NCBI RefSeq assembly: GCF_900880625.1
Contig: NZ_CAAHFB010000005.1
Location: 124,001-188,000, forward strand
Reading direction: 5' to 3'
Origin: Halorhabdus rudnickae
Lineage (GTDB): Archaea > Halobacteriota > Halobacteria > Halobacteriales > Haloarculaceae
Length of the DNA: 64,000 nucleotides
Positions 11,467 through 43,744 of this stretch are shown in pieces (position 1 is the first letter of the stretch; each line of letters starts with the position of its first letter). Both the position numbers and the translations under genes were made by a program. The notes beneath the pieces are model-generated. The model worked only from the letters and a program-made list of their open reading frames with translations. It was not told the DNA's origin and searched no databases.

Positions 11467-11472
11467 CACTCG

Positions 11473-14866: not shown

Positions 14867-14969
14867 CAACGTGATGATACGATTGTAGAATTGAATCGAC
14901 CATCCGCAGTCCTATCTAACGGCAGATTCATCCGGGGAGCTATCAAAACAATAGGGTTTCAACAGAGCC

Positions 14970-14977
14970 AGAATGAC
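14970..14977. repeat. Target-site duplication, right copy
   Basis: AGAATGAC, identical to 13658-13665, directly after the right inverted repeat. Confidence 0.93.
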
Positions 14978-16218: not shown

Positions 16219-16251
16219 TCAGAAGTCCCTCAGTCCAGTACAGGAAGCGGA

Positions 16252-21799: not shown

Positions 21800-23350
21800 T
21801 TACTGACGGTTCGTGACTGCTTCGATATCTTCACGGAGCGACGCCAATTCCTCTTCCAGCCGGTCCTGCCGTTCGAGCAAGCGCTCGACATCGGGCGTGA
21901 TCACGTCTGACTTCCCAACTTCGATCGCTTCGAGGTGGCTGGCCGTCTGGACTGCCTCGGCCTCAGTATTGTCGTCGAGATACTCGCGTAGGTGAGCGGC
22001 CGCAGCGGGAGGGCCGTGGACAAGCGAGATACCGAGGGGATTCGCTCCGCGAGCAAACTCGAGAAGATCGTTCGCAGCGGCGTGACCGGACATCCCACCG
22101 ATTTCGTGGACCCAGGCGGTCGGGACCCGGATCTCCTGTTCTTGGAAGCCGAACTCGTCTGTCTCGGAATCGTAGTCCTCGGCAGCCGGGAGCGCGGTGA
22201 TCGTGACGTCAGCGACGTCGCCCGGTGTATCTTGGATCGCGCGTCCGGGCGTCCCCTCGGCCTGATAGCCGATGAACAGCACCCGTGCTTGGTCGTAGTG
22301 ACGGGCGAGGTCACGCAGGTAGTACGGCGACCAGCCGCCGGTGAGCATCCCTGACGGCGCCACGATGATCGGTGCGGACTCCCCATCGAGAAGGCGTTCC
22401 CGTTCTTCCATCGTCTCGGGCGTCCAGGCACAGTCGGGCGTAAACGGCTCAGCGTCGTTCGAGTTGATCCGGTAGTTGGTGATCGATTCGCCCATGAATT
22501 CGTCCTGGCAGAACACCTCGTAGACGGACATCGACTCCGTGATCATGCCGTCGTAGACGATCGACGGTTCGCCGTCGACGGCGCCGCGAAGATCGTCTTC
22601 ACGCTCCCGGAATAGTTGGAGGATCTCCTGGGCCCGCCCGACGGCGAACGTCGGGATGAGGACCGGAATACCGTCAGCGTGAGCTTGCTTGGCCCGCTTG
22701 TAGACTTCTGTCCGGGCATCGCTGAACGAGCGGTGTTGCATCGTGTCCCCGTAGGTGGACTCGAGGACGAGCTCGTCTGCCTCAGGCGGCTCGTCGATAT
22801 CGCCGAGATGGGCACTTCGACCGCCGAGGTCGCCGGAGAACACCACACGGCGATCGTCGAATTCCAGGACGAGCCACGCACTCCCGAGAAGGTGGGCAGC
22901 GTCACCGAACTCGTAGGTGACGTTGAGATAATGGTCGCGATCGTACCCGACGCTGGTGACGCGATCGAGGACACGCTCGACGTCGTCGCTGGTGAACTCT
23001 TGGGGTCGACCGAGCTCTTCGGCCTCTTGCTTGTGTATCTGGAGAGAGTCGTGGAGCAAGATTCCCGTTAGAGCATTCGTCGGCCGGGTCATCACGATCG
23101 ATGCATCGTCGGCGAGCAGTCCGCGTTTTTCCGCAACCGGCAGAGCGCCGATGTGGTCGATGTGCGCGTGCGTGATGAACACCCCGTCGATCTGTCCGGG
23201 CCCGATGCCACGGAATGTCGGAAACTCCGCCGTCTGAGCCTGCTTTATACCACAGTCGACGAAGTAATCTCGATCGTCGGCCTGGACGTGATAGCATGAT
23301 CGGCCGACTTCGTCGGCTCCGCCACGCGGCGTGATCTCGAATGTGCTCAT
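21800..23350 (-). CDS. Beta-CASP metallo-beta-lactamase nuclease
   Basis: 516 residues. The MBL motif 2 is VFITHAHIDHIGALP (about 60-72), motif 3 lies in DAAHLLGSAWLVLEF, motif 4 in VVFSGDLGG, and beta-CASP-type motifs follow (VLESTYGDTMQHRS, VLIPTFAVGRAQEILQLF, IIVAPSGMLTGGWSPYYL, HEIGGMSGHAAANDLLEF). This family includes archaeal CPSF-like and RNase J-like RNA-processing enzymes. There is no KH domain at the N-terminus, unlike aCPSF1, so it fits the shorter group. A C-terminal coiled coil (RLLERQDRLEEELASLRED) may mediate dimers. It acts on RNA or DNA in the cytoplasm; the precise substrate is unknown. Confidence 0.9.
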   Translation of the reverse strand: MSTFEITPRGGADEVGRSCYHVQADDRDYFVDCGIKQAQTAEFPTFRGIGPGQIDGVFITHAHIDHIGALPVAEKRGLLADDASIVMTRPTNALTGILLHDSLQIHKQEAEELGRPQEFTSDDVERVLDRVTSVGYDRDHYLNVTYEFGDAAHLLGSAWLVLEFDDRRVVFSGDLGGRSAHLGDIDEPPEADELVLESTYGDTMQHRSFSDARTEVYKRAKQAHADGIPVLIPTFAVGRAQEILQLFREREDDLRGAVDGEPSIVYDGMITESMSVYEVFCQDEFMGESITNYRINSNDAEPFTPDCAWTPETMEERERLLDGESAPIIVAPSGMLTGGWSPYYLRDLARHYDQARVLFIGYQAEGTPGRAIQDTPGDVADVTITALPAAEDYDSETDEFGFQEQEIRVPTAWVHEIGGMSGHAAANDLLEFARGANPLGISLVHGPPAAAAHLREYLDDNTEAEAVQTASHLEAIEVGKSDVITPDVERLLERQDRLEEELASLREDIEAVTNRQ

Positions 23351-23466: not shown

Positions 23467-24675
23467 CTACGCCTCGGATGTGGCGGGGAGGTCGTACTCT
23501 CCACTCACGTTCAGCGTCCCGCGATTCAAGCGCACGTCTACAGGTGCGCCTCCGTCGTCTGCGTTTTGCCGACGACGGAGATACTGTAGGCCGATGTTCT
23601 TGGAAGCGTTGTAGTCGGCGTGGTTCTGGTAGCCGCAATCTTGACACTCGAAGTCCTCGCCGTGGCGGTTGTCGTCGTGGGTAAACCCACAGGTTGAACA
23701 CCGCTTCGAGGTGTTCCGTGGGTCTACTTGGACGGCTTCGACGCCCTGCTCTCTGGCTTTGTAGGCGACATACTCGTAGAGACGGCGGAACGCCCAGATA
23801 TGGTGCCACGACGCCCGTGGCACGTTCTCACGAATGTCGGTCAGGTCCTCGAACACGATGTGCGAACAGTCGTGTTCGACGGCTTCGGCTACGATTTCGT
23901 TGGCGACCCGGTGTAGGAATATCTCGAAGCGTCCTTCCTCCTTGCGCTCGATGCCTGCTATCGCGTCGTGTGCCGCTCGTGTTCCGCACTGTTGGAGGTC
24001 ACCACGCCGTTTTTCGTACTCTCGCTTCCAGTGGTTGAACTCGTCTGCCGACCAGAATCGCCCAGTCGAAGCAACCGCGAGTTGGTTCACACCGAGGTCC
24101 ACACCGAGGACTGTTCTGTGCCCGGTCGTGGTGTCGGTGTCGTCGTCCTCTTTGAACATCGACGCATGGAGATACCAGTCGCCGTCACGTCGATGAAGTG
24201 TCGCCCGCCGAAACTCGAAGTCCTCGTTGGCGACGTACTTCGTCGGCGGTGTCTCGGGATTCTCAGGGAGAATATAATCGCACTCAATACGCCCGTCCGG
24301 TGTCGATAGTGAAACGTGGTTACGGTGGAACGTGGCGCTTCGCTTGTCGTAGATAGCGGTGTCTGCCGAGAACGTCGGACGGGACGTATCTTGGTCGTCT
24401 TTGAGTCGTTCGACGCCGCTTTTGATGGCTTCGACGGCCTGATGAATCCCTTTCTGGACGAGGTTCGCGGTCAACTCCGTGTCCTCGCGTAGCTGGTCGT
24501 ACAGTGCATCTTCGGCCTTCGCCTTCGATGTGACGTGGTAGCCGTCGTCACCGTGCCAGCACCACTCGCTCGCGGTGTTGGAACAGTATTTGAATTGCTC
24601 GATAGTCTCCCGCAGGTGTGTATCCGCGCCTTCGGGCGTGTCGAGCTTGATAACGGCGGTTCGACGGTACTCCAC
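23467..24675 (-). CDS. tnpB: TnpB RNA-guided nuclease (IS200/IS605 group)
   Basis: 402 residues from a GTG at 24675 (VEYRRTAVIKLD is the usual TnpB start). The frame is open further upstream but lacks family-like sequence. RuvC residues: Asp in VLGVDLGVNQLAVAS, Glu in HIVFEDLTDIREN, Asp in HADYNASKNIGLQYL. A four-cysteine zinc knuckle (CSTCG...CQDCG) lies between the last two. All three catalytic residues are present, so the protein is likely active as an omega-RNA-guided DNA endonuclease that preserves its element. The C-terminal tail (GEYDLPATSEA) is typical of haloarchaeal copies. Confidence 0.93.
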   Translation of the reverse strand: MEYRRTAVIKLDTPEGADTHLRETIEQFKYCSNTASEWCWHGDDGYHVTSKAKAEDALYDQLREDTELTANLVQKGIHQAVEAIKSGVERLKDDQDTSRPTFSADTAIYDKRSATFHRNHVSLSTPDGRIECDYILPENPETPPTKYVANEDFEFRRATLHRRDGDWYLHASMFKEDDDTDTTTGHRTVLGVDLGVNQLAVASTGRFWSADEFNHWKREYEKRRGDLQQCGTRAAHDAIAGIERKEEGRFEIFLHRVANEIVAEAVEHDCSHIVFEDLTDIRENVPRASWHHIWAFRRLYEYVAYKAREQGVEAVQVDPRNTSKRCSTCGFTHDDNRHGEDFECQDCGYQNHADYNASKNIGLQYLRRRQNADDGGAPVDVRLNRGTLNVSGEYDLPATSEA

Positions 24676-24765
24676 GATACTTTCACATATCTGCCTGTGG
24701 TTACTTAATGATTGGGAGTTAGTAGGCAACAGTTTGGCGGCTGGTTGATACCAGGTCGGCTTCCT

Positions 24766-24826
24766 CCCCACCCTACTCGCTTGTGCTTCCGCCGGGGCCG
24801 GAAGCCGGCGCTCCTTGAGGGTGGGG
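24766..24826 (-). repeat. Second hairpin, upstream side of tnpB
   Basis: CCCCACCCT (24766-24774) pairs with AGGGTGGGG (24818-24826); the loop contains a GCTTCCGCC / GGCCGGAAGC sub-stem. It matches the design and orientation of the hairpin at 23393-23446. It may be the left end of the element or a leftover right end of another copy. Confidence 0.6.
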
Positions 24827-24899: not shown

Positions 24900-25115
24900 A
24901 TGGCTCGGAAACGAATCAGTCAAAACACAGGGGATTCGGGCCGGGTAAACCTCTCAGGTCCGGAGTTACGGAAGTTCGAGGCGCAGATCGGTGACACGAT
25001 CAAAGTCGATGTCGCGGAGTCGAAAGACATCGCCCACGCGATCGTCGATAACGCAGCGCACGAGGAGTTCGTGATCGTCTCGAAGCCAGCGGAGGCCGGG
25101 GATACCGATGAGTAG
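24900..25115 (+). CDS. Small AbrB/SpoVT-like protein heading the defence cassette
   Basis: 71 residues: MARKRISQNTGDSGRVNLSGPELRKFEAQIGDTIKVDVAES resembles an AbrB-type swapped-hairpin half (GRVNLSGPELRKFEAQIGDTIKV), followed by a short helix and strand. Its last 8 bases overlap the start of the DUF499-like gene, so it is translated from the same mRNA. It probably binds DNA as a dimer and may autoregulate the five-gene cassette from the promoter at about 24860-24895 (a GGTTATACG box lies about 30 nt before the ATG). The regulatory role is inferred. Confidence 0.7.
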   Translation: MARKRISQNTGDSGRVNLSGPELRKFEAQIGDTIKVDVAESKDIAHAIVDNAAHEEFVIVSKPAEAGDTDE

Positions 25116-28100
25116 CACATATCCCACTCTCTTCGAGGCTTGTGCGCCCCGCGACGACGTCCTGGACGGGTCTCTCCAAGAAGAGCAGTTCGCTGCGAAG
25201 CTCTCGACCGTCGTCCACAACCCCGAGAACGCCGCGCCTGTGTACCGAGACCCGGGGTCGTTCTACGATATGACCTATCCGACCGAGGGGCTTCGGACGC
25301 TGTTATCGAATCTCGCCGGACGATTCCTCGCGACCACGGACTACGGGTCTGATACCTATACGTCGAGTATCCTCTGTCTCGACACGCGGTTCGGCGGTGG
25401 GAAAACACACGACCTCATTGCGGCGTACCACCTCGCCGAGGATCCCAGTGCGATCGATAACCTCCAGCGGTTCCTCCTCAGCGCTGACGCCGATCTCGCA
25501 GCCCAGTACGGTGAGGCCGCAGCGAACGGCCTCGATGTCGCGACGGGCGTGTTCATCGGGACGAAGGCCGACAGCAAGGACGCCCGCCACGCCAGCGACG
25601 ATCCGAACGCCCCGAACACCCGAACGATGTGGGGCGAACTCGCCTACCAGCTCTACGGGCTCGAGGGCTACGAGTTCCTCAAAGACTACGATCAGGACCG
25701 AGACGCACCCGGTGAGGGGACGCTCACCGAACTTTTCGACCAGCATGACCAGCCGGCGCTGATCCTCATCGACGAGATCGCGGACTACATGAACAAGGCC
25801 GCCGGGACCGCTGTCGGCAACCAGACCCTCGCCGACCAGACGCTGTCGTTCGTCATGGCCCTCCTGGAAGCCGCGACCGAGACGGACAACGTCACCGTCG
25901 TCTACTCGATCGCGGACACGGCATTCGGCGAGCAGGCCGACAAGGTTCGCGACGGCGTTCGCGACCACATCGAGGAGGTCAACGAGATCGGCCGGCGCCA
26001 ACACAAGACGGTGACCCCGACCGACGAAAGCGAGATCGGGCAGGTCCTCCAGCACCGTCTGTTCGAAGAGATACCAGAAAAGAGGGCCCACGAGGCCGCC
26101 GAGTCGTACTTCCAGTTCTACGACCAGGGCGACCGGCAGTATCCCCAGGAAGCGACCGACGCGAGCTACGTCGACGTCCTCGAACGCGAGTATCCGTTTC
26201 ACCCGTCACTGATCGACGCGCTGACGGACAAGATCGACACGATCCCGCGATTCCAGCGGACACGAGACGCGCTTCGCCTCCTCGCTCGGGCAGTCTACTA
26301 TCTCTGGAACAACCAGCCAGAGCATTACGACCGCCACTGGATCCGCATCTACGATCTCACCGTCTCGGACGACGACCCCGGTGGTGGGATCCAGACCATC
26401 CTGCGCGAGCGGCTGTTCGATTTCGTCGATCTCGGGCCCGCCGTGACCGCAGACATCTACGACGACGATGGGACGGCTCACGCCCAGCTCGAGGACCGCA
26501 AATGGACCGAGAACGGGATTCCACCCCTGGGGACGCACCTGACGACGACGGTCCTCTGGCACAGTCTCGCCTACGGCGAACAGGCGGCTGGCCTCACGCA
26601 CGCGGATCTGAATCTCGCACTCGGCCACCCACACCTCAACTTCGACGACTACGATGCCGCCCTCTCTGCGCTCCGTGGCGACGACATGGACGTCGCGTGT
26701 TACTATCTCTACGAGGAGGAGCGGATCCGATTCAAACAGGAGCCCAACCTGATCCGGATCATCGACCAGCGAATCGATTCGACGCCAGAGGCGACAGCGC
26801 ACGCTCGCTTCGAGAACCAACTGATCAACGACGAGATCGGCGATGGTGGGTTCGAATCGGTCGAGTTCCCCGAGTCACCGGCTGACCTTCCCGACACACC
26901 GGACGTCCCAAAAATCGCGGTCATGCACCCCGATACAGCAGCGGTCGATGACGGAGGCGACACACCACTGGGGAAGGTCGAGCAACTCTACACGCAGAAA
27001 GCCGCCAAGCACGACGGGGAGACGGAGACGCGGGTCTTCAAGAACTACGCACTCTTTCTCGCCCCGGATGCAGACCGAATGGAGTCTGCGATCGAAGAAG
27101 CCCGCCGACTCGAGGCGATCGAGGCGCTCCTCGACAGCCCGGAGCAGAAGGCCGACCTTTCGACCGAGCAGATCGAGGAACTTCGCGAGCGAAGCGACGA
27201 GGCCCAGTTGATGCTTGCTGAGCTCGTCCGGAACGTCTACCGACACCTGTACTACCCGGATCGGGACGGGCTCAATCACATCACGATCAGCGCGACGGAG
27301 TCGAACGGCGGGACGACACTCGTCGAGGCCGTCCAGACGACACTCGAGGACAAGATCGTCAAGCGAGACGCCGGCGCACGGGGCTCGGCTCACGTTGATC
27401 AGCGCCTCTGGCAACAGACACAGGACGCCATGTCCACCGAGGCGCTGGTCAACCAGTACGCGAAAAAGCCAGGGCTCGACTACCTTTTCAGCACGAAACC
27501 GATCCGTGAGACGGTCGCATCCCTCGTGAGCGATCACGGGTACGCCTACTGGGACGCCGACTCGGAGACCGCCTACTGGACGGGCGACGATCCAGAGGGG
27601 TGGCCCCCTCAGCCAGACTTCGATGACTCCCCCGACGTCGAGACAACGATCCGAGACAGCGACGTGAAGATCGGGCCGTCCTTCCACGTCTACCAGGACA
27701 TCGATTCACTGCTCGAGGACCACCTCGACGAGATCGAGCGCCCGGAATCACCGGAGGCAACCTGTGCAGAATGTGGGACTGTCATCGACGAGCCAGAGGG
27801 GAGTACCCCGTACTATTGCGAAGAACACCAGTCGTCGACGACGTGTAGCTCCTGCGGGACGGAGGTTGCCAACGAGAGACTACTCGACGGACAGGGCCGG
27901 TGTCAGGACTGCCAGCCCGACGAATCCTGGGATGCGGGGACGAAGATGATGTCCGCGTCTCGGGCCTTCTCCGAGGTTCGTCGCGACGCGGAGTCGACGG
28001 CCGGTGCCGACCGAACGCCGCTTCTCGCGGAGCTCACGATCGAAGTCGGTAGCGACGACCCGTTCCAGGCCGCGAAGTTCATCAGCCAGCGCCCGGGGTT

Positions 28101-28404
28101 CAAGGCCCGGGAGGACGCAGTCACCGCCCGAATGGAGTACGAAACGCGGACCAACGACGGCACGTACACCGCCGAATTCACAGGCTCGCCGGACCGGTTC
28201 CGCGACGTGATCGACCAGCCCGGGTCGTTCGGTGATACTCGATCGACGATCCAGTTCCGCTTCCAGTTCGACGAGCCGGAGCCGATCACCGACGCTCGCG
28301 ACGATCTTCTGGCAGCGCTCGACAACGACCTAGACTCGGGCAGCATCGACGTTCGTGTCGAGGGGGAAGGGCCGATTCGGGCGAGTTCGGAGGTGACGGT
28401 CTGA
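25108..28404 (+). CDS. DUF499-like AAA+ ATPase of a defence cassette
   Basis: 1098 residues. Walker A is TRFGGGKTHDLIAAYHLAE (about residues 94-112), the GGGKTH form typical of DUF499 proteins. Walker B is ALILIDEIADYM. The C-terminal third holds a two-knuckle zinc region (CAECGTVIDE...YYCEEH, CSSCGTEV...CQDC) and a final alpha/beta domain. DUF499 ATPases recur with DUF1156 methyltransferases and helicases in bacterial and archaeal defence islands; their exact mechanism is not settled. It overlaps the AbrB-like gene by 8 bp and meets the next gene at an ATG/TGA overlap, so the cassette is one operon. GC is high. Confidence 0.82.
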   Translation: MSSTYPTLFEACAPRDDVLDGSLQEEQFAAKLSTVVHNPENAAPVYRDPGSFYDMTYPTEGLRTLLSNLAGRFLATTDYGSDTYTSSILCLDTRFGGGKTHDLIAAYHLAEDPSAIDNLQRFLLSADADLAAQYGEAAANGLDVATGVFIGTKADSKDARHASDDPNAPNTRTMWGELAYQLYGLEGYEFLKDYDQDRDAPGEGTLTELFDQHDQPALILIDEIADYMNKAAGTAVGNQTLADQTLSFVMALLEAATETDNVTVVYSIADTAFGEQADKVRDGVRDHIEEVNEIGRRQHKTVTPTDESEIGQVLQHRLFEEIPEKRAHEAAESYFQFYDQGDRQYPQEATDASYVDVLEREYPFHPSLIDALTDKIDTIPRFQRTRDALRLLARAVYYLWNNQPEHYDRHWIRIYDLTVSDDDPGGGIQTILRERLFDFVDLGPAVTADIYDDDGTAHAQLEDRKWTENGIPPLGTHLTTTVLWHSLAYGEQAAGLTHADLNLALGHPHLNFDDYDAALSALRGDDMDVACYYLYEEERIRFKQEPNLIRIIDQRIDSTPEATAHARFENQLINDEIGDGGFESVEFPESPADLPDTPDVPKIAVMHPDTAAVDDGGDTPLGKVEQLYTQKAAKHDGETETRVFKNYALFLAPDADRMESAIEEARRLEAIEALLDSPEQKADLSTEQIEELRERSDEAQLMLAELVRNVYRHLYYPDRDGLNHITISATESNGGTTLVEAVQTTLEDKIVKRDAGARGSAHVDQRLWQQTQDAMSTEALVNQYAKKPGLDYLFSTKPIRETVASLVSDHGYAYWDADSETAYWTGDDPEGWPPQPDFDDSPDVETTIRDSDVKIGPSFHVYQDIDSLLEDHLDEIERPESPEATCAECGTVIDEPEGSTPYYCEEHQSSTTCSSCGTEVANERLLDGQGRCQDCQPDESWDAGTKMMSASRAFSEVRRDAESTAGADRTPLLAELTIEVGSDDPFQAAKFISQRPGFKAREDAVTARMEYETRTNDGTYTAEFTGSPDRFRDVIDQPGSFGDTRSTIQFRFQFDEPEPITDARDDLLAALDNDLDSGSIDVRVEGEGPIRASSEVTV

Positions 28405-29045
28405 TGTCGGCCGACGGCACGGATATCCGGTCTCGATCACCCGGCGAGGCCGAACGTGATAACCTCGTTCGCTACGAGTCGAGTCTCTATGGTGGCCGCC
28501 CGACGTTCATGCTGGTTCGTCGGGAGACGGATGGCGGCGCTGAGTGGACGCTCGACGAACTCCTCCCCACAGAACAGGCCGAAGCCCGTCGCGATCGCCT
28601 CGAACGTGGGGGTCGATCGCTGTGTATCCGGTCGATCGAAGACCTGCTAGAGAGACTCCACGGAGTCGACACGCCCGCAGAGTACGAGGGATGGGCGTGG
28701 AGCGGATGGATGGGGGCGAAGGTGGCGCGACTCGACCCGACTCGGGTTCGGGCCCTCCAGGACGTCGTCCGCACAGCTGTCGAGGGGACGCCCGCTGATC
28801 CCGATGAGGTCCTCCGGGGCGGAGACGGGTTCGTGTTTCTCCCCGAGTCGGCGGGCATCCGTCTCGCCGTCGCGTTCCGGGGCGTGAAACCCCTCCAACG
28901 CGTCGACCGGATGCGGTCGCTCGCCCGTGGCGTCGCTCGGATGAGCGACGAGGAATGCTATTACTGGCACGCAAAGTGCCGATCACCATCGAGTCCGAAC
29001 GGAGAAAAGGCGCTTCGAGTACTGCTGACGGACCATATCGAGTGA
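28404..29045 (+). CDS. Small accessory protein of the defence cassette
   Basis: 213 residues with no motif I can name. It begins MSADGTDIRSRSPGEAERDNLV; the core is rich in Arg and Trp (YEGWAWSGWMGAKVARLDPTRV) and it ends YYWHAKCRSPSSPNGEKALRVLL. The ATG overlaps the preceding stop, so the protein is made with the DUF499-like ATPase and is probably its partner. It takes the place that small DUF3780-type proteins hold in bacterial relatives, but homology to those is not established. Confidence 0.6.
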   Translation: MSADGTDIRSRSPGEAERDNLVRYESSLYGGRPTFMLVRRETDGGAEWTLDELLPTEQAEARRDRLERGGRSLCIRSIEDLLERLHGVDTPAEYEGWAWSGWMGAKVARLDPTRVRALQDVVRTAVEGTPADPDEVLRGGDGFVFLPESAGIRLAVAFRGVKPLQRVDRMRSLARGVARMSDEECYYWHAKCRSPSSPNGEKALRVLLTDHIE

Positions 29046-29054
29046 AATAGACAA

Positions 29055-31946
29055 ATGAGTCAAAAACCAGAAGATCAGGACGTGGACTCGGATTTGAAGC
29101 GAGTGGCAATTGAAGGGACACTCCCGCTGAAGGCGGTGGGTATCGAGAACCTGAAAGAGGCAAACCCTTACTTCATGCCTCCGCATCGCTATCTCCACCC
29201 CTGGTTCGCCCGCCGACCGACACCCGCTTCCCGGTTAGCAATTCTGTCATCGGTACTTCCCCCGGATGTGAAAGCGAATACTCTGCTCGATTGGATGCAG
29301 ATCGGCCCCCGTGACGACATTGATGTAGACATTGAGCAGTACGTTGCTGAGAAGAAGAGGACGGAAGATGAGCGAGACGGTAACTTAGAAGAGCATTACG
29401 GGTACCCGCGTCCATATACACGAACGCCAACCACTGACGAGAAAGGGGAGATTCACGATCTTCTCAGAGACCACTGGGATGGGGAATTACCGACAGTTCT
29501 GGATCCCACAGCAGGTGGAGGTGTAATTCCGTTCGAGTCACTTCGATATGGTCTTCCAACGGCCGCAAACGAGCTCAATCCAGTCCCAACTGTGATGCTC
29601 AAGGTGCTTCTAGAGTATGCACCAAATGTCGGCTCACTACAAAACGAGCTGAATGAATGGGGTGATCGGATAACTGAAATCGCCGGTGAAGAACTCACAC
29701 CATATTTCCCGAGTGATGGAGAACGACAAACCCCATCTCACTATGCCTGTACTTACGCTGTCGACTGCCCCGAGTGTGGGTGTGACATTCCGATAACGAA
29801 GAAGTGGTGGCTTCAGAAACAATCTTCCTCAAAAGGAGTTGCTGCTCGCCCATCTGTATCCGAGGATGAGACCGAAATTGAGTACGAGGTAGTCCGCCTC
29901 CCAGATGATGTTGAAAAATCGGAATACAACCCTCAAGATGGACCACATACTCGAAGCGGGGCCGAATGTCTGAACTGCGGTATTGTAATGGAGTCAGATG
30001 CAATTCAGGAAAAAATACGAGATTATGACTTCAGGTATGAAATATACGGAGTCAAGTATGAGAAATCTGATGGGGGGACCGCTTGGCGAGCTCCGATTCC
30101 AGAAGATTACGAAGCCCAATCAAGGGCAGCAGATCGGATCGAATCCGATTTCGATCTTAGTTCACTACTAGATGTTCCGCGATATATTGGAGACGAAGAT
30201 AGGGCAGGCCCTTATGGAGTCACGAAATGGAGGGACGCTTTCACACCAAGACAACTCGTAACTCTACACGAATACTTACAAGCCTACAAGGAATGCCAAC
30301 AGGAGATCCTCGAAAAGTACGACCAAGAGAAGGGTGAGGCCATTTTAGCGGTACTGGCTCTGGTTGCTGGGAAGACAGTAGATCGAAATGTCCGATTTGC
30401 TCCATTAGATATTAGCAATGGACTCCTCGGAAACGCTCTAGGTGGGAAGCATTTCACACTCCAGTGGTCGTTTGTCGAAAACAATCTCTCCGCTGGAAAT
30501 CAAGACTATCACGATACACTTGACCGGGTCAGAGATTCCTATGAGGAAATAGCTACCTTTCTCAGCGACGAAGACGCAAATGATGTCCAAGTCTCGCAGA
30601 GTGACGCAGCTGATCTCCCGCTTGACTCAAACTCTATCCAAGCCGTAGTAATCGATCCCCCGTACTACGATAGCATCATCTACTCAGAAATGTCTGATAT
30701 GAGCTACGTCTGGCTCAAAGAATATCTCGGGGATATCTATCCCGAAATCTTCTCAACTGATTTGACAGATAAAAGTGAGGAGGCTGTAGCCAACGTCGCG
30801 GAATACGAAGAAGTCGCCTCGAATTCAAGCTCGAAGTCAGAATTGGCTGCTGAAGACTACGAAAACAAAATGGCTGAGATCTTCCAGGAACTCTACCGGG
30901 TGATCGAACCGGGCGGGGTGATGACCGTCATGTTCACCCACAAAGAGTCCAGCGCATGGGATACCCTCACCAAGTCTCTGATTCGATCCGGATTTACAGT
31001 CACCTCTACGCACCCGATCACCAGCGAAATGCCCCAACGGACGGACACGCGTGGGGGCGGTTCCGCTGACAGCACTCTCCTGCTCACCGGGCGAAAGCCG
31101 GTCGATGCCGACGAAGACGATAGCGAAACCATCCCAACCCTCTGGAGTGATGTCCGGGCGGACACCCGACAAGTCGCTCAAGAAGCGGCACGTGATCTCA
31201 TCGACGCCGGGCTCTCACTCACCAAAACCGACGTCATCATCTCTGCGTTCGGCCCGACCCTGAAGGTTTACGCAGACGCGTACCCGGTCGTCGACGATCA
31301 AGACCAAGAAGTCCCGCCCCGGCGGGCTCTCGAGGAGGCTCGCGAGGCCGTCACTCGAGTACTCGTCGAGGAGTATCTCGAAGGTGAGGGACTCGACGAT
31401 CTGGACGATATCACGGAGTGGTACATCCTCTCCTGGCTGGTCCACGAGTCCGAGACGTTCGACTACGACGACGGCCATCAACTCGGTCTCGGAATCGGCG
31501 TGGACATCGACGATATCAAGCGCTCGACGAAGATCTGGGGGAAGAAGCGCGGCGACATCCAGCTGAAGACCCATGACGACCGCGTTCAGGATATCACGCT
31601 CCCCAGAGACGAACGGTCGAGCCGGACACCAGTCGATCCGGACGCGCTGTCCTACACTGTCGCGCTCGATGCCGTTCACGCCGCGATGCACGTCTACGAG
31701 AAGCAGGGTGAAGACGTCGCGATCGACTGGCTGAAGCAGCGAAGCTTCGACACTGACGCCTCGTTCAAGGCGACCCTGAAGGCGCTTCTCCAGGTTCTCC
31801 CACAGAACCATCCGGAGTGGGAAGCAGCGCGGGATCTGGCTCTTGGTCGCGCTCACGACGCGCTCGGCCTCGAGTTCACGCCGACGGACTTCACCGACGA
31901 CCGAGACCAGGGGCCAGAACAAAGCGAACTGAGCGACCATTCGTGA
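29055..31946 (+). CDS. DUF1156-type DNA methyltransferase
   Basis: 963 residues. The N-terminus LPLKAVGIENLKEANPYFMP...LHPWFARRPTPASRLA is the DUF1156 signature. SAM-binding motif I is VLDPTAGGGVIPFESLRYGL (about 155-174) and motif IV is VVIDPPYYDSIIYSEMSDMSYVW (about 532-554); DPPY fits amino-methyltransferases (N6-adenine or N4-cytosine). A cysteine knuckle (CPECGCD...CLNCG) lies in the putative target-recognition part. It probably marks host DNA for the defence system. GC drops to about 48% from the start codon to about nt 30870, then returns to about 63%, so the first two thirds appear to have been exchanged by recombination. Confidence 0.85.
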   Translation: MSQKPEDQDVDSDLKRVAIEGTLPLKAVGIENLKEANPYFMPPHRYLHPWFARRPTPASRLAILSSVLPPDVKANTLLDWMQIGPRDDIDVDIEQYVAEKKRTEDERDGNLEEHYGYPRPYTRTPTTDEKGEIHDLLRDHWDGELPTVLDPTAGGGVIPFESLRYGLPTAANELNPVPTVMLKVLLEYAPNVGSLQNELNEWGDRITEIAGEELTPYFPSDGERQTPSHYACTYAVDCPECGCDIPITKKWWLQKQSSSKGVAARPSVSEDETEIEYEVVRLPDDVEKSEYNPQDGPHTRSGAECLNCGIVMESDAIQEKIRDYDFRYEIYGVKYEKSDGGTAWRAPIPEDYEAQSRAADRIESDFDLSSLLDVPRYIGDEDRAGPYGVTKWRDAFTPRQLVTLHEYLQAYKECQQEILEKYDQEKGEAILAVLALVAGKTVDRNVRFAPLDISNGLLGNALGGKHFTLQWSFVENNLSAGNQDYHDTLDRVRDSYEEIATFLSDEDANDVQVSQSDAADLPLDSNSIQAVVIDPPYYDSIIYSEMSDMSYVWLKEYLGDIYPEIFSTDLTDKSEEAVANVAEYEEVASNSSSKSELAAEDYENKMAEIFQELYRVIEPGGVMTVMFTHKESSAWDTLTKSLIRSGFTVTSTHPITSEMPQRTDTRGGGSADSTLLLTGRKPVDADEDDSETIPTLWSDVRADTRQVAQEAARDLIDAGLSLTKTDVIISAFGPTLKVYADAYPVVDDQDQEVPPRRALEEAREAVTRVLVEEYLEGEGLDDLDDITEWYILSWLVHESETFDYDDGHQLGLGIGVDIDDIKRSTKIWGKKRGDIQLKTHDDRVQDITLPRDERSSRTPVDPDALSYTVALDAVHAAMHVYEKQGEDVAIDWLKQRSFDTDASFKATLKALLQVLPQNHPEWEAARDLALGRAHDALGLEFTPTDFTDDRDQGPEQSELSDHS

Positions 31947-31953
31947 GCAACTG

Positions 31954-34900
31954 ATGTCGGGACTCCGTGACCGCGAGTGGCAGTCCATCTACGAGAGTCA
32001 GCCCGAACGCGGGCAGGCTCACCTCGTCAGGAACTTCTACGAACCAGCGCTCGAGCGAAGCACCCAGTACGATCGAATCGCGGGCTACTTTTCGAGTACC
32101 GCCCTCGCAGCGGCCGCGAACGGGATCCACGCGCTAGTCGATAACGACGGCGAGATGCGGCTGATCGTGGGGACCGAGCTGTACGAGTCCGACCGACCCG
32201 TCCTCGAAGCGCTGACGGACCAACTGGAGGCAGGCCTGGACGAGCTCGACGACGAACGCCTCGATGCGAACCTCCAGATCCTGGCGCGATTGCTCCGGGA
32301 AGGCCGGATCCACATCAAGGTCGCCTACCCCCGGGAGCCGTCTCACGAGTGGGAGATCTTCCATCCGAAGGTGGGTATCTTCCACGACGAAGACGGCACC
32401 GCACTCTCGTTCGAGGGGAGCGTCAACGAGACAGTCGGCGGGTGGGCCCGCAACTACGAGCGATTCAAGGTCCACCGATCGTGGGTCCCCGAACAGGCCG
32501 ACTACGTCGACGCCGACCAGGACACCTTCGACCGGCTCTGGGCTGACGACCACCCGTTCGTCGAGGTGTACGACCTCCCTGATGCGATCGAGCAAGACAT
32601 CATCGACTGGAAAGCTCCCGACTCGAATGCGGACCTCCAGACCGCCGTTGAGATCGCTCGCGGGACGGCGCCGCCGACCGAGCGCGATAAGGCCAACATC
32701 GTGCTTGATGGCCCGCTCTCTCCGGGCGCTCTCGCGCTCGCCGAACAGGCTAGTACAATCACGCCCTGGCCCCACCAACGCGTCGTCTCGGACACCCTCG
32801 TGAACACCTATCCTCAGAGCTTCCTCCTGTGCGACGAGGTCGGCCTCGGGAAGACGATCGAGGCCGGGCTCACCCTATCGCGACTCGGGATCACCCAGGA
32901 AATCGAGACGGGACTGTTACTCGTCCCGGCAAGTCTCCAGAAGCAGTGGCAAGAGGAACTCTGGGAGAAGTTCAACATCGACGCCTACCGCTTCGAGCGG
33001 GACACTGCCGGCGACCACGTTTTCCGTGACGCCCACGGTCGCGACCACTACCCACCGTCGGCTTCCGATCTCGATCTCGCCGGGGATCACGAGTGGACAT
33101 CGAGCCCAATCTGGCGGTTCCTCCACGAGAAGCAGTCCGAACGGTCGGGCCCCGACAGCACGCTGGACGGCCCGACGATCGTCATCATGTCCTGGCATAC
33201 GGCACGACTGGACGACCGCTGGGAGCAGGTCGCGCCACTGGAGGAATCCTCGGACCGGACGCGAGCGGAGGTGCCCGAAAGCTGTCGCGGTCGAGAGTAC
33301 GGCGCCACCGATCGGATGGGAGTGTGGGACGCCGTCCTCGTCGACGAGGCCCACAACGCCCGTCGGGGGAGCAACTTCTATGCGCTGCTGGACGAGTTGC
33401 GTGACTACACCCATGCGTACTACCTGCTGACGGCGACGCCGATGCAGCTGCACGCCGGCGAACTCTACGACCTCATGCGGCTGTTGGACCTCCCCGACCC
33501 GTGGGACGACCGGGACGCGTTCAGGGAGTTCTTCCAGACGCGAGGGGCGCTCTCGAAAGCACTCGACGAGGTCGGCAGTGGTGGTGAGGGAAGCGACGAG
33601 TCGTGGGAGGCCCAGGCGACGCTGGACGGGCTCGAACACCAGGACCGCCTGCCTGCGGATCGGTCCTTCTCCGCGAAGCTCTTCCGGCGACTCGCCGACG
33701 AACTCGACATCAACACCGACGGTCAGGACCGGGCGATCGCCAAAGAGCGTGTCCTGACCGCCTGCCGACTCGCTCGTGGGTACGGTTCTGCCTACGACAG
33801 CTATCTCGATCACGTCGACGACGCGATGGCCGAGTCCGACATTGACCGGTTCGGAGCCAGCGAGGACACCAAGCTCAAGCGCCTCCTCTACCCCGAGGAT
33901 GCCGACGAATGGTTGATGTCTTCCCGGAGCGACCGGCAGGACGCCCTGGACGAGTTGTCCGAAGACGGCTGGCAGGTCGTCCTGGAGACGCTGTCGGAGT
34001 CGACTCCGGTGGACGCGTTGATCCATCGCAACACCCGGGACACCCTCCGGAAGTACGAGGCGGTCGGCTTGCTCGACACGACGGTGCCGGACCGCCTGCC
34101 CGAACAGCGAACGATCGAACTCACCGACGAGACCCGGGCGGTGTACGACCAGATCGACGAGTACACCCGCGAGTTCTACAAGCGCGCCCAGCAGACCGAC
34201 GAAGCCCAGACCCGCGCCATCGGGTTCGTGATGACGACCTACCGCCAGCGACTCACCTCGAGTGTCTACGCGATCAGTCAGAGCTTGCAGCACCGCCTCG
34301 AAACGCTCCGAGCCCAGCAGACGGTGCTGAAAGGCCGCCAGCGCGCCCAAGAGCGAGAGTATGGTGAGACAGAACAGATCGTCCTCCAGACGATCCAGGA
34401 CGCCGACCTCGGGGACAGTGACGTCCTGGACCAACTCGATGCGAGTAGTGACGACATCGACCTCTCCGAACTAATCCCCAGCGTGACCGAGGAGGGGATG
34501 CAGCTGATCGAAGAAGAGATCGACGCACTCGAAGCATTCGTCGCAGACCTCGAGCGTATCGACACCGACCCCAAGATCCAGCAGCTCTACTCCGACCTTG
34601 ACAAACTCGATCGCGAGGGGCACAATCGCATCCTTGTCTTCACGCAGTACGCTGATACGATGGACTTCATCCGAGACAGTCTGATCGATATCGGCGGGTC
34701 GACCGTCGCGACGTACTCTGGCCGTGGTGGTGAACTCTACGACGACGCCGACGGGACGTGGCGACACGTCGGGAAGGAGCGCGTCAAGCGGGAATTCTCT
34801 CGGGAGGACGGTCAAGTCGATATCCTCGTGTGTACGGACTCGGCGAGTGAGGGACTGAACCTCCAGGAGTGTGGTGCGATGATCAACTACGACCTCCCCT

Positions 34901-35874
34901 GGAACCCGATGCGCGTCGAACAGCGGATCGGCCGGATCGACCGCATTGGCCAACGGTTCGACGAAATCACGATCCTCAACTACAGCTACGAGGACACCGT
35001 CGAGACTGACATCTACGACCGGCTGGACGATCGGATCAACCTCTTCGAAAGCGTCGTCGGGGAGATGCAGCCCGTGCTCTCGGGCGTGAGCGATCAGATT
35101 CGAGCCGCGACCCTGGAAACCGACGCCGAGTCGAGTTCCGAGGCCGTCGAAGCCGCCGATCGGGAGTTCTCCGAACAGGTCGAAGACCAGGACCAGACCG
35201 ATCGGGTGGACGTCGGCGAGTCACTGGACTCCGTGGACACGCTCCTTGAGGAAGACGTCGTCGACGAAGCGAAACTCGACGCCTGGGCGTCGTTCCGCCA
35301 CCCCGATCTCGTCGACGTCGGCGACGACGAGTATGCGTATCCCGAGCCGTTCCACGTTGCGGGTGTCGAGGAGATCCTGATCGGCAACGAGACGCTCTCG
35401 GACGCCGGTATCACGTTCGTCCCGGCCACGGACATCGACACCAGCGCTGCGACCGACGGGTCGGGCTTCGAGTTTGCCGATACGACGTATCGCCTGGAGT
35501 GGGACGCCCTCGACGGGCAGACGGGACAGAACGGTGGGACACTCGCGGAGGCGATCGCGCCGGCGGACGGCACGGTCGCCGTCACGTTCGACAGCGAGTG
35601 TGCCGACGAGTTTCCGTCGATCCAGTATCTCGCTCCCGGGAATCCCCTGCTCGATCGACTAGTGCGGACGCTTCGCTCTGCGAGCGACGAGCCTCTGCGC
35701 TTGTCGAAGGTGGACGCGTTCCGATCGGAGTCGATCAGTGTCCCACTCGTCTGTGGCTGGAGTCGGACCACGACACTCGCACGTGTTACGCCTCAGGGAG
35801 CGGTGGGCGATGTGGACGACATTTCGGCCATCCAGCAGTGGTGTGACGAATTCCTCAACAATCAGCGGGGGTAA
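31954..35874 (+). CDS. SNF2-type helicase with N-terminal PLD-like domain
   Basis: 1306 residues. The N-terminal part has a phospholipase-D-like motif (IFHPKVGIFHDEDG...FEGSVNET), suggesting a nuclease domain. Helicase motifs: I LLCDEVGLGKTIEAGL (about 288-303), II AVLVDEAHNARRG, III YLLTATPMQLHAG, and V/VI SASEGLNLQECGAMINYDLPW...QRIGRIDRIGQ. These are typical of RapA-like SNF2 translocases. It starts 7 nt after the methyltransferase. The combination with DUF499, DUF1156 and this helicase recalls DISARM-like and related restriction systems, but the DUF1998 (drmB) subunit is absent. Confidence 0.88.
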   Translation: MSGLRDREWQSIYESQPERGQAHLVRNFYEPALERSTQYDRIAGYFSSTALAAAANGIHALVDNDGEMRLIVGTELYESDRPVLEALTDQLEAGLDELDDERLDANLQILARLLREGRIHIKVAYPREPSHEWEIFHPKVGIFHDEDGTALSFEGSVNETVGGWARNYERFKVHRSWVPEQADYVDADQDTFDRLWADDHPFVEVYDLPDAIEQDIIDWKAPDSNADLQTAVEIARGTAPPTERDKANIVLDGPLSPGALALAEQASTITPWPHQRVVSDTLVNTYPQSFLLCDEVGLGKTIEAGLTLSRLGITQEIETGLLLVPASLQKQWQEELWEKFNIDAYRFERDTAGDHVFRDAHGRDHYPPSASDLDLAGDHEWTSSPIWRFLHEKQSERSGPDSTLDGPTIVIMSWHTARLDDRWEQVAPLEESSDRTRAEVPESCRGREYGATDRMGVWDAVLVDEAHNARRGSNFYALLDELRDYTHAYYLLTATPMQLHAGELYDLMRLLDLPDPWDDRDAFREFFQTRGALSKALDEVGSGGEGSDESWEAQATLDGLEHQDRLPADRSFSAKLFRRLADELDINTDGQDRAIAKERVLTACRLARGYGSAYDSYLDHVDDAMAESDIDRFGASEDTKLKRLLYPEDADEWLMSSRSDRQDALDELSEDGWQVVLETLSESTPVDALIHRNTRDTLRKYEAVGLLDTTVPDRLPEQRTIELTDETRAVYDQIDEYTREFYKRAQQTDEAQTRAIGFVMTTYRQRLTSSVYAISQSLQHRLETLRAQQTVLKGRQRAQEREYGETEQIVLQTIQDADLGDSDVLDQLDASSDDIDLSELIPSVTEEGMQLIEEEIDALEAFVADLERIDTDPKIQQLYSDLDKLDREGHNRILVFTQYADTMDFIRDSLIDIGGSTVATYSGRGGELYDDADGTWRHVGKERVKREFSREDGQVDILVCTDSASEGLNLQECGAMINYDLPWNPMRVEQRIGRIDRIGQRFDEITILNYSYEDTVETDIYDRLDDRINLFESVVGEMQPVLSGVSDQIRAATLETDAESSSEAVEAADREFSEQVEDQDQTDRVDVGESLDSVDTLLEEDVVDEAKLDAWASFRHPDLVDVGDDEYAYPEPFHVAGVEEILIGNETLSDAGITFVPATDIDTSAATDGSGFEFADTTYRLEWDALDGQTGQNGGTLAEAIAPADGTVAVTFDSECADEFPSIQYLAPGNPLLDRLVRTLRSASDEPLRLSKVDAFRSESISVPLVCGWSRTTTLARVTPQGAVGDVDDISAIQQWCDEFLNNQRG

Positions 35875-38491: not shown

Positions 38492-40921
38492 ATGTCTCCT
38501 GACACCGGGTTTGGTGCGAATCCTCAAATGGCGGTTACAGCCGCCGTCGCGAGTATTTTGATATTAGGTCTTGTATTCGCAGGACCGGCTCTTGCCGCAT
38601 CAGGAGACTTGGAAGTGTCGGTGTCGATCCCGAACAACGAGGGGGAGGTCTGGACGGCTACTCAAGAGCCGTTCAACATCGACGTCACCGCGGAAATGCC
38701 CGAGTTTTCTGGGGAAGCTGACCTCACGCTGACTCTATATGTGAGAGGAGACGAGAAGGACTCGAAAACGATCACCGTCGAAGGTGGACAGAGTCTTAGC
38801 GAGTCCTTCACCTACACGTTCACCTCTTCCCCAGACAATCCGGTAGATAACCCGGTAGATGTGGAGGTTGAAGGGGAACTGACCGCCGACGGAGACACGT
38901 TCAGTAACAGCGATACCGTACCGGTTCACGTTACGCAGTCATACGTTCCAGAGAGCCCGTTCCCAGAGAGGCTCAACGTCCCTGATGACCTCGTTTACGA
39001 CGATACGATCAACGGGATCAACGCCTCCAACGCGTACAATCTATTCGGTCTGGACCGGGTGAACCATAGCAATCCGCTCGTTCGCGGTGGGGTGAATTGG
39101 AACCTCACTGGAAACGTGAGTTTCGAGAATATGTCTGCCGAGAATAAATCCGTCTTCTTGAAGGCATACGCGAACGCAGCGGACATTACGTACCCTGGTT
39201 TCCCCCCGTTCGTACCCACTTGGAACGCAAACAATTGGGACGACTTTTCTGGGTCATTCAGTTCAGGAACCGACCGGTCCTTTAATGCCGATCTTGGGGT
39301 CGGGGGTGGTGCCGTAATCAAGCACGCAGGCGTGTCGATGTTCAATATCGAAGAGTCAGTCACCCTATTCAGGTCAAATAACCCGTCCGGTCGAATCAGA
39401 TATATTCCAGAAGAATCCACGATACGTGGCACAGCTGACTATCGAATCGAGGTGCCAGAGGGAACCGATAGAGTCGGGTATGAGGAAAGCTACTCGTTAG
39501 ATGGCTCGTCAGTCAGCCAAGTTTGTGTCGTAGCTGGGTCTGGATCCTCATGTTCGAGTGGTAGTGAAGTAGGATCTACCGGCGGTAGCAAATTCTTTGA
39601 GGTCGATTACGACATGGGGAGTCGTGACCCGGACGAGATCCAACTCGTTGCTGAGTTTTCTGCGAATATCGAAAAGACGGTTCGAGACCGATACCAAGTC
39701 TGTCACAATGGATCCTGCCATTATGAGTGGAGTACGACCACCACGCACCAATCATACAGTGCCACCGCCTCAGAAACGATATCTGTCGAAGTGAGGGACG
39801 AGGTCAGAGCTCTCGTTGACAGACGAGTTCTCCCCAACGGAAAGGTGGGATTCGACGTACAATTCGAGCCGGCATCAGGGGACGTCCCCGTCGCCATGTG
39901 GTCCAATATGTCGATCAACAACTCCCGAGTCCTGTCCGGATGGGAGTTTACCACATGGCGTAACACGAACTGGGACAGCCTGCGTCGATTCAACGAATCA
40001 ACCGAAATGTCGTATGGTCCAGATTGTGAAAGGACCTTCAGCAACGGGAGTCTCGACGAAGGTGACAAACCTGGAGAGATTGTTAACCAGGACGATGATT
40101 CCACCACGTTCCATAAGGACGGGTGCTGGCCTGCCCACGTAAAACGGCCATCTGTTCCGATTCGCACCTATGGGTTCCCGGTTTCGGAGCCCTACGCGTA
40201 CCAAGGTGAAGAGATATACGTGAGACATGTCCGGCATGATTCCCCGCATGGGACGCTCTCAAGTCCTGAACCACAACTCCCGGGTGCTGTCGACGTCGCG
40301 GTAGTGAACAATAGTTATCAGCCAGCCACCGGGGTCGCAGTGGTTTACAATGGTAAGATTCCACCCAATGAATCCGCATACGAGAGCTCGCGAGACTACC
40401 CTCCTGGAGAAATCACCGTTGACGACATCGAATTCCGGACCTTCCCCCCGTCTGCCCCAACTGAAGTTGAAGAAGTCGGGGACCAGACAGAGGTCCAAGA
40501 GACAGAACTGGTTGCGAGCGTTGTCGACGAAAGGGAAGACGAGTTAGATGTTGCTGTCCACTTAGAAGAAGCCGATAGTGGAGATCCAATCCAACTGCCC
40601 TCGGACGACGGGTACATCCAACTCAACCGAGGGGAGTTCTCAGATGAAGAGTTTAGAACCAACTCGGATGGGAACGTCACAGTCACGGTTCCAGCGAAGT
40701 ACACCGGAAATCTCCACTTCGAATACGTACCAGAAGATTGGTGGAACGCTTCGGCCTCAGAAGTTGCCTATGCAGGGAGTGAAACACGAGTTTCACTCGG
40801 ATTCGGCGTCGGGGCTGAAGGACTAATAGTCAGATTACTTAATATAATCTGGTTGCCAGCAGCCCTACTCTTGACCATGTACGGTCTCTTCAAGCGAGAT
40901 GTCATCATGAAGTACATCTGA
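38492..40921 (+). CDS. Large secreted, membrane-anchored surface protein of the T4SS locus
   Basis: 809 residues with a signal peptide (AVTAAVASILILGLVFAGPALA) and one C-terminal transmembrane helix (VRLLNIIWLPAALLLTMYGLF) with a basic tail, so most of the protein is outside the cell. It has many N-glycosylation sequons (NHS, NLT, NVS, NMS, NKS around residues 190-225), repeated beta-strand sections and several cysteines (VCVVAGSGSSCSSG, CHNGSCHYEW). Probable roles are mating-pair contact or a cell-wall-spanning part of the conjugation apparatus. No known adhesin family is recognised. Confidence 0.65.
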   Translation: MSPDTGFGANPQMAVTAAVASILILGLVFAGPALAASGDLEVSVSIPNNEGEVWTATQEPFNIDVTAEMPEFSGEADLTLTLYVRGDEKDSKTITVEGGQSLSESFTYTFTSSPDNPVDNPVDVEVEGELTADGDTFSNSDTVPVHVTQSYVPESPFPERLNVPDDLVYDDTINGINASNAYNLFGLDRVNHSNPLVRGGVNWNLTGNVSFENMSAENKSVFLKAYANAADITYPGFPPFVPTWNANNWDDFSGSFSSGTDRSFNADLGVGGGAVIKHAGVSMFNIEESVTLFRSNNPSGRIRYIPEESTIRGTADYRIEVPEGTDRVGYEESYSLDGSSVSQVCVVAGSGSSCSSGSEVGSTGGSKFFEVDYDMGSRDPDEIQLVAEFSANIEKTVRDRYQVCHNGSCHYEWSTTTTHQSYSATASETISVEVRDEVRALVDRRVLPNGKVGFDVQFEPASGDVPVAMWSNMSINNSRVLSGWEFTTWRNTNWDSLRRFNESTEMSYGPDCERTFSNGSLDEGDKPGEIVNQDDDSTTFHKDGCWPAHVKRPSVPIRTYGFPVSEPYAYQGEEIYVRHVRHDSPHGTLSSPEPQLPGAVDVAVVNNSYQPATGVAVVYNGKIPPNESAYESSRDYPPGEITVDDIEFRTFPPSAPTEVEEVGDQTEVQETELVASVVDEREDELDVAVHLEEADSGDPIQLPSDDGYIQLNRGEFSDEEFRTNSDGNVTVTVPAKYTGNLHFEYVPEDWWNASASEVAYAGSETRVSLGFGVGAEGLIVRLLNIIWLPAALLLTMYGLFKRDVIMKYI

Positions 40922-40956
40922 GAAAATACAAAAAGGCAGAGTTTAAACCCAAAATC

Positions 40957-41790
40957 ATGACTTACCGACACACACGGAGGAAGTTCATCGCGGGTGGGTG
41001 CATCGCAGTCATAAACGCTATCGCCGGATGCTCAGGCTCGGATGAAAGTCCCGATAGTCAGTCTGGTGGGTCAGGAGTGATCGATAGCGCGTCCGTACAG
41101 CAGACCCTCAACGTAGATCTCAACTCTGGCACGGATGTAGACCAACTCTCGTTGACCGGGCCAGATGGGGAAACTTGGCGAGAAAAGTCAGTCGGGGACA
41201 CGGATACAGTCTCGGTAAATCTGCTATCTAGTGGTGGGTATCCTCCCGGAGAACAAACCATCAATGCCCACGATTCAGAGGGGAACGTGATCGGATCGAC
41301 AACGATCGACATCTCCCCAAATATCGAGATCACCGAAATCGGGTTCGCGAAAAGCTACGACATTCCAAACGGCGGCCTCGAGCGGCCGTTCCGACCGGTC
41401 GTACATGTTGAGAATACAGGGTCCGGCCCTGACACGGTTGAACGGCTCGAGATTGAGAGCCCTCTCACGGGGGATAGATACGAGCCAGAGCCCGTAATAA
41501 GAAAGAACGCAGAAAGCGGGGCCAGCGCCACCGCTAGCTCAGGTATCCCGGTAGCGAGCGGTGAAAGGCAGGGCGTCAGAGTCGACCATCCAGCGCTAGG
41601 AGCTATCGGAGCAAACCGGGATTGCGAACAAACTATCAACGCGACTGTGACCGCTGGGTTACTGATATCTTCGGATGAGACTGTCGAAGTGACGGTATCT
41701 GGGGTCGCTCCGGAAGAAACGCCCCGGGGGATGCGGGGTGGGTTCGAACTGAGAAACGAACAGTGCTCGCTCAACACTGAGATACAATGA
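40957..41790 (+). CDS. Tat-exported lipoprotein of the T4SS locus
   Basis: 277 residues. HTRRKFIAGGCIAVINAIAG and CSGSDES form a twin-Arg signal with a lipobox Cys; the mature part begins with a Ser/Asp-rich linker. Two immunoglobulin-like domains follow (GPDGETWREKSVGDTDTVSV; PFRPVVHVENTGSGPDTVERL), as in many haloarchaeal extracellular proteins. Its stop overlaps the next gene start by 4 bases (ATGA), tying it to the transfer operon. It may be the archaeal counterpart of the lipoprotein component (VirB7-like) or a surface scaffold; this is inference from position. Confidence 0.7.
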   Translation: MTYRHTRRKFIAGGCIAVINAIAGCSGSDESPDSQSGGSGVIDSASVQQTLNVDLNSGTDVDQLSLTGPDGETWREKSVGDTDTVSVNLLSSGGYPPGEQTINAHDSEGNVIGSTTIDISPNIEITEIGFAKSYDIPNGGLERPFRPVVHVENTGSGPDTVERLEIESPLTGDRYEPEPVIRKNAESGASATASSGIPVASGERQGVRVDHPALGAIGANRDCEQTINATVTAGLLISSDETVEVTVSGVAPEETPRGMRGGFELRNEQCSLNTEIQ

Positions 41791-43742: not shown

Positions 43743-43744
43743 CA

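Follow-up and report, generated by a model that had tools for sequence, protein, structure and literature searches.

A DUF499-centred, BREX-related probable defence operon with a DUF7680 protein in Halorhabdus rudnickae

Introduction

Operons centred on a DUF499 ATPase are named Hma in PADLOC (PMC8565338) and were grouped in 2026 as BREX (bacteriophage exclusion)-related (BR) systems of types 1-3 in the main text of PMC12839542. As described there, Type-2 BR systems consist of DUF499, DUF3780, a DUF1156 methyltransferase and an HKD-helicase; 98% of the taxa have DUF3780, which is proposed to read a methyl mark. An archaeal operon composed of a methyltransferase, DUF499 and an SNF2-nuclease (PD-(D/E)XK or phospholipase D, PLD) has also been noted (PMC7641849). 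Here, we analyzed a stretch of 64,000 nucleotides from Halorhabdus rudnickae (RefSeq assembly GCF_900880625.1, contig NZ_CAAHFB010000005.1, forward-strand positions 124,001 to 188,000; hereafter, the window), in which a five-gene cassette at positions 24900-35874 had been proposed in an earlier note, made from the sequence alone, to be a probable defence cassette resembling DISARM (defence island system associated with restriction-modification). Based on our analysis, the cassette most likely represents a widespread branch within a known kind of defence system; the small protein that characterizes this branch, DUF7680, is undescribed in the papers that we found.

Results

Comparison of the cassette with described systems

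As in the DUF499-centred BR systems, the cassette encodes a DUF499 AAA+ ATPase, a DUF1156-type N6 methyltransferase and, in the same operon, an SNF2-family helicase. The closest resemblance in architecture is to Type-2 BR (PMC12839542; NCBIfam NF042962-NF042964), with which the cassette shares the four-gene order, the N-terminal HKD domain on the SNF2 helicase, the DUF1156 methyltransferase, the DUF499 ATPase and, in second place, a small alpha+beta protein with its main predicted elements in the same order. Unlike Type-2 BR, which has a standalone DUF3780 protein, the cassette has DUF7680 with no DUF3780 match in Pfam, it falls outside the DUF3780 clade in three trees, and its proteins score far under the NCBIfam equivalog cut-offs. 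The DUF499 protein reached 209 bits (1.4e-61) against a cut-off of 1200 for NF042962 (DUF499_antiphage), the methyltransferase 120 bits against 1000 for the anti-phage DUF1156 family, and the helicase 326 bits against 1100 for the anti-phage phospholipase D family; thus, the three large proteins are relatives, not members, of those equivalog families.

The cassette also shares a DUF499 ATPase, a DUF1156 methyltransferase and an SNF2 helicase with Hma, i.e., Type-1 BR (PMC8565338, PMC12839542), and the best PADLOC matches of its ATPase and methyltransferase are HmaC (1.4e-82) and HmaB (2.2e-54), respectively. In the main text of PMC12839542, Type-1 BR is described as a three-gene system whose helicase mostly carries a C-terminal PD-(D/E)XK nuclease (active in 79% of the taxa) and whose ATPase often carries HEPN, whereas the cassette has an N-terminal PLD nuclease, a DUF7680 gene and no HEPN match in Pfam. 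In a comparison based on Pfam, the C-terminus of the cassette helicase gave no nuclease match. Type-3 BR differs by its PglZ and iSTAND components, and no PglZ match was found among the five genes or the scanned neighbours.

Two other systems share parts of the cassette. Residues 4-343 of the helicase match positions 2-325 of the model of PbeA (2.7e-65), the PLD-helicase of the DndCDEA-PbeABCD system (PMC6459918), but a methyltransferase takes the place of phosphorothioation, and we rejected PbeABCD as an assignment since the cassette proteins have no match to the PbeC CxC-ABC ATPase or to DndE. DISARM was likewise rejected: a DrmD-like SNF2 helicase match (8e-64), a methyltransferase and a PLD domain are present, but none of the five proteins matches DUF1998 (DrmB), as the earlier note had already remarked, and the helicase scores 269 bits against the DISARM cut-off of 610. 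The proposal of a probable defence cassette is upheld, with Hma and the DUF499-centred BR systems, not DISARM, as its closest named relatives.

Distribution and gene order of DUF7680 operons

A search of 391 Halobacteria genomes detected DUF7680 in 64 of them, with two copies in the genome of the window (contigs C5, which holds the window, and C2). The second copy lies in a diverged operon (locus L007, C2:60001-80000, genes at 6442-16851) without a lead-gene match, whose large proteins score about 710-870 bits against those of the window. DUF3780 (PF12635) was found in none of the 391 Halobacteria genomes; no control genome matched, but the same search finds methanogen members (2/295 and 8/200).

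The earlier note had recommended a search for the gene order in other archaea. Among 41 further haloarchaeal loci, all of which were picked via their DUF7680 gene, the order DUF499-DUF7680-methyltransferase was present in every one, followed by the PLD-helicase in 39; of the two loci without a PLD-helicase match, L046 reaches the end of its contig and L049 has none within the stretch fetched. The small protein in third place, which had been noticed and left unnamed, is a DUF7680 protein by its Pfam match and a fixed partner in the system.

A scan of genome contigs yielded 158 DUF7680 relatives, of which 80 were kept; these were mostly cyanobacterial, and the others came from Chloroflexi, Planctomycetota, Gemmatimonadetes, Deltaproteobacteria and Bacillota. 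In these mostly bacterial loci, DUF499 stands directly upstream of DUF7680 in 69 of the 74 with room for it, and 36 of 46 have a methyltransferase no more than 9.5 kb downstream; many of the exceptions are broken or truncated loci. The same gene set occurs on plasmids of Rhodococcus, Sinorhizobium, Nostoc, Leptolyngbya, Pseudanabaena and Picosynechococcus, with DUF7680 confirmed by Pfam in all four plasmid proteins tested; on the Rhodococcus and Sinorhizobium plasmids, the gene order is shared as well. Plasmid-borne DUF3780 operons have the same order with DUF3780 where DUF7680 stands. The recurrence of this gene order in haloarchaea and many bacteria indicates that the operon arrangement is more than chance.

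Some loci depart from the common layout. In the cyanobacterial locus L147, DUF7680 is encoded in reverse orientation relative to DUF499, the methyltransferase and the helicase. In L038 (6949-8442), the methyltransferase gene is interrupted by a transposase gene, IS66-like by reading, and the other operon genes are full length. Extra genes stand between the methyltransferase and the helicase in L037, L040-L042, L044, L047-L049, L053-L055, L058, L061 and L062; by reading alone, they include SF1-type helicase, PHP-ATPase, PD-(D/E)XK-like, DUF3800-like and other kinds. This interval is likely a hot spot of accessory gene insertion.

Exchange of the methyltransferase gene

Across 35 complete haloarchaeal loci, the identity of the DUF499 protein correlates more tightly with that of the helicase (r 0.98) and of DUF7680 (0.95) than with that of the methyltransferase (0.83). 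In 33 locus pairs with at least 90% DUF499 identity, the methyltransferase fell below 75% in 19, and neither the helicase nor DUF7680 did so in any. In the pair L050 and L056, the proteins are 99% (DUF499), 98% (DUF7680), 53% (methyltransferase) and 99% (helicase) identical. At the DNA level, identity of about 95% extends to the final base of the DUF7680 gene (L050:5546) and is regained at the final base of the methyltransferase gene (L050:8459). A drop of the same kind was observed in L066/L067, L048/L051, L040/L043 and L047/L055, with the lowest identity in the first 1800 bp or so and higher identity in the final third. Compared with its five closest relatives, the window likewise shows 75-76% identity in the helicase and 73% throughout in DUF7680, with 62-88% in the methyltransferase.

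The low-identity region includes the insert between methyltransferase motifs I and IV, to which PMC12839542 assigns target recognition; in the window, this variable insert, with CxxC pairs, is located at 29652-30584 (+) and is the probable target recognition region. Because the methyltransferase alone is exchanged between loci with near-identical ATPases, it is very likely the methyltransferase that carries the specificity; in the simplest reading, the ATPase, DUF7680 and the helicase would work with any of several methyltransferases. By the same token, DUF7680, if it is a methyl-mark reader, must read the mark regardless of the surrounding sequence.

Relation between DUF7680 and DUF3780

The profiles of DUF7680 and DUF3780 align collinearly and almost end to end over 133-138 columns, with a score of 22.1 (p 0.013) when DUF7680 is the query and of 34.9 (p 1e-4) when DUF3780 is the query. 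A comparison of alignments A4 and A3 scored 31.5 (p 3.2e-4), and the small initial sets scored weaker. Of 130 null windows drawn from other alignments, not one scored as high as the actual comparison, whichever family was the query; with DUF7680 as the query the margin over the null is small (22.1 vs 21.2), and no null window aligned over 130 columns. The predicted models (mean pLDDT, a per-residue confidence score, of 87.2 for DUF7680, with a predicted template modelling score, pTM, of 0.82, and of 79.9 for DUF3780) have a common order of main elements, namely strands 1 and 2, strand 3, a helical stretch, strand 4 and four helices. DUF7680 proteins of haloarchaea exceed those of cyanobacteria by about 60 residues in length and have an extra helix-strand-helix after strand 2 (residues 56-90 in the protein of the window). 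Based on the profile alignment and the predicted element order, DUF7680 and DUF3780 are likely remote homologues.

The DUF7680 model had no fold match with E <= 0.001 in the Protein Data Bank or among viral models, and the DUF3780 model had none among viral models; hence, the function is not readable from known folds. DUF7680 was not found in viral contigs. No paper that we found names DUF7680, and one names DUF3780; DUF7680 is absent from the main text of PMC12839542, a study that may nonetheless include such loci within one of its other types.

Trees of the three large proteins

In quick trees of DUF499, the methyltransferase and the helicase, the DUF3780 operons group as a single long-branched clade (support 100) that is separate from every DUF7680 row. 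The DUF7680 methyltransferases form one group (support 97). The DUF7680 label requires two changes in the DUF499 tree, and the support of the DUF7680 group is only 28 in the helicase tree, so the unity of this group is uncertain in those two trees. The HEPN-type (Type-1) rows are on the DUF7680 side, on long branches and with unsure placement. As judged from these trees, the DUF7680 and DUF3780 operons are separate lineages despite the probable homology of their small proteins.

Gene layout and catalytic motifs

Five tightly packed, consecutive plus-strand open reading frames fill positions 24900-35874, exactly where the earlier note had placed five genes with overlaps or gaps under 10 bp; the overlaps measure 8 and 1 bp, and the gaps 9 and 7 bp. 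The 71-amino-acid lead gene (24900-25115) overlaps the DUF499 gene (25108-28404; 1098 amino acids; HmaC/BrxC-like; PF04465 at 2.6e-33 and 115 bits against a cut-off of 23) by 8 bp. Based on the alignment of relatives, the DUF499 Walker A motif, DTRFGGGKTHDL, is located at 25381-25416 (+) and is kept in 42 haloarchaeal and 72 other rows of DUF7680 systems, and the Walker B motif, ALILIDEIADYM, is located at 25756-25791 (+). The DUF7680 gene (28404-29045; 213 amino acids; PF24728 at 1.6e-34) overlaps the DUF499 gene by 1 bp and is followed, after a 9-bp gap, by the HmaB-like DUF1156 DNA methyltransferase gene (29055-31946; 963 amino acids). The latter has an N6_N4_Mtase match and a DUF1156 match (7.8e-5, 23.2 bits) just under the Pfam cut-off of 24; the alignment of relatives places its S-adenosylmethionine-binding motif I, VLDPTAGGGVIPFE, at 29496-29537 (+), and the protein sequence and the same alignment place the catalytic motif IV (DPPY) at 30654-30665 (+).

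The last gene, after a 7-bp gap, encodes a fusion of a PLD (HKD) nuclease and an SNF2 helicase (31954-35874; 1306 amino acids), with Pfam matches to SNF2-rel_dom (7e-15), Helicase_C (1.4e-17) and PLDc_2 (1.1e-4; residues 36-196, 22.5 bits against a cut-off of 27) and a PADLOC match to PLD_Helicase (3.9e-66). Residues 137-170 hold an HPK...GSVN...E motif that is kept in relatives, with the HxK (HPK) and GSxN (GSVN) parts of the PLD active site, located from the protein sequence and the alignment of relatives, at 32362-32370 (+) and 32416-32427 (+); there is one of each per chain. The SNF2 Walker A motif, LCDEVGLGKTIEAGL (32827-32871, +), the DEAH box, VLVDEAHNARR (33334-33366, +), and helicase motif VI, QRIGRIDRIGQ (34921-34953, +), were also identified from the alignment of relatives. 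The catalytic motifs of the ATPase, the methyltransferase, the PLD nuclease and SNF2 are intact and kept across 94-122 aligned relatives; together with the family matches, they agree with the earlier view that an ATPase, a methyltransferase, a PLD nuclease and an SNF2 translocase lie in one operon. Scans for sigma-70 promoters and terminators did no better than on shuffled sequences, and these models are in any case unsuited to archaea.

The lead gene

The lead gene has no match in the Pfam, PADLOC or NCBIfam libraries. A profile-profile comparison (hhalign) with AbrB proteins gave p of about 0.002 over 32 columns that cover the AbrB signature, using a lead-gene alignment with two rows (L220 and L221) that look misread. 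The AbrB-like (AbrB/MazE-like) label of the earlier note thus finds a weak profile match and no library match, and the gene might tentatively be taken as a regulator of the operon. The gene had also been thought unusual for such systems, but strong matches to it stand directly before DUF499 in 16 of the 41 other haloarchaeal loci.

Plasmid surroundings

Because ParA, Cdc6, VirB4-like and TraD-like genes share the contig, the operon is probably on a conjugative plasmid. Downstream of the cassette, a row of large plus-strand genes at 38492-54295, some without a family, is a probable archaeal conjugation cluster, with a VirB4-like gene at 44866-48642 and a TraD/TraG-like gene at 50234-54295. Two neighbouring proteins encoded at 56611-57753 and 58276-59259 match PADLOC TGT (6e-45 and 7e-49) and have no NCBIfam family; it is possible that they are plasmid 7-deazaguanine modification genes. 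Directly upstream of the cassette is a gene for a TnpB-like protein (Cas12f1-like TNB domain, OrfB_IS605; 23467-24771, minus strand), with a beta-CASP metallo-beta-lactamase protein nearby (21800-23350, minus strand). Further upstream, matches to family B DNA polymerase and to homing endonucleases lie in one 750-amino-acid frame (5941-8193, minus strand), possibly an intein-bearing polymerase gene or its remnant.

Discussion

We estimate a probability of roughly 0.7 that the cassette acts against viruses and plasmids in a restriction-modification-like manner, as a member of the DUF7680 branch of DUF499-centred BREX-related systems; DUF3780 systems with the same gene order are labelled anti-phage by NCBI. 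In the mechanism that we propose, the DUF1156 methyltransferase would recognize a short sequence via its own target recognition region and methylate adenine in the host DNA. Held together with the DUF499 ATPase and DUF7680, the same methyltransferase would inspect incoming DNA; at an unmethylated site, the ATPase assembly would recruit or license the SNF2 translocase, whose PLD domain would likely cut the DNA. We infer the adenine target, the joint modification/restriction complex, the cutting and the regulation by the lead gene from knowledge of the families.

Several points weigh against this reading. The methyltransferase swaps come from genome comparison only, in five separate pairs that may not all represent independent events, and we found no phenotype, methylome or biochemistry for the DUF7680 branch. 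In the PLD motif, a histidine replaces the aspartate of the canonical HxKx4D, and PbeABCD, whose PbeA shares the PLD-helicase N-terminus, has been reported to halt virus replication without cutting DNA and to leave the viral DNA intact (PMC6459918). These last two points, together with the relation of DUF499 to BrxC of BREX, would favour a replication block as in type 1 BREX or PbeABCD, in which unmethylated DNA is recognized and its replication stalled, with the PLD domain serving only a structural or DNA-binding role. We consider this unlikely, as the HxK, the GSxN and the following E are kept across the DUF7680 rows, as expected of an active site, and a reanalysis of Pbe disputes the no-cut view and argues for cleavage (PMC10853773).

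The genomic context bears on a further alternative, namely that the operon mainly retains the conjugative plasmid by killing cured cells and excludes competing plasmids, with virus defence being secondary. The ParA, Cdc6, VirB4-like and TraD-like genes on the contig, the many plasmid-borne relatives and the second copy of the operon on another small contig of the same genome are consistent with such a plasmid-selfish role, but L038, L042, L058 and L060 are on contigs of chromosome size and defence systems in general are commonly found on plasmids, which leaves this role improbable. It is less credible still that the methyltransferase regulates genes with the assistance of the other genes and without restriction. 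Orphan methyltransferases are conserved in Halobacteria, according to the title of PMC6471742; nevertheless, a nuclease-helicase with its motifs is retained in nearly all loci, and a methyltransferase that is exchanged so often does not resemble the source of a conserved regulatory mark.

Returning to the restriction-modification-like reading, we lean, by a small degree, towards regarding the DUF7680 operons as a lineage of their own among DUF499-centred defence systems, the fourth and so far unrecognised, spread over haloarchaea, cyanobacteria, Chloroflexota, Actinomycetota and others. This lineage would pair a Type-2-like HKD effector with a diverged counterpart of DUF3780 and would switch specificity through exchange of only the methyltransferase gene; DUF7680 and the ATPase would then have to act without regard to the target sequence.

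With this analysis, DUF7680, an unnamed domain family, gains a location, a probable set of partners and a link to DUF3780, and a system named only piecemeal in the libraries searched enters the archaeal defence catalogue. Natural pairs of operons in which little but the methyltransferase differs offer a plain test of which subunit confers specificity in BREX-related systems, and they also bear on whether the small protein can be the reader of the methyl mark.

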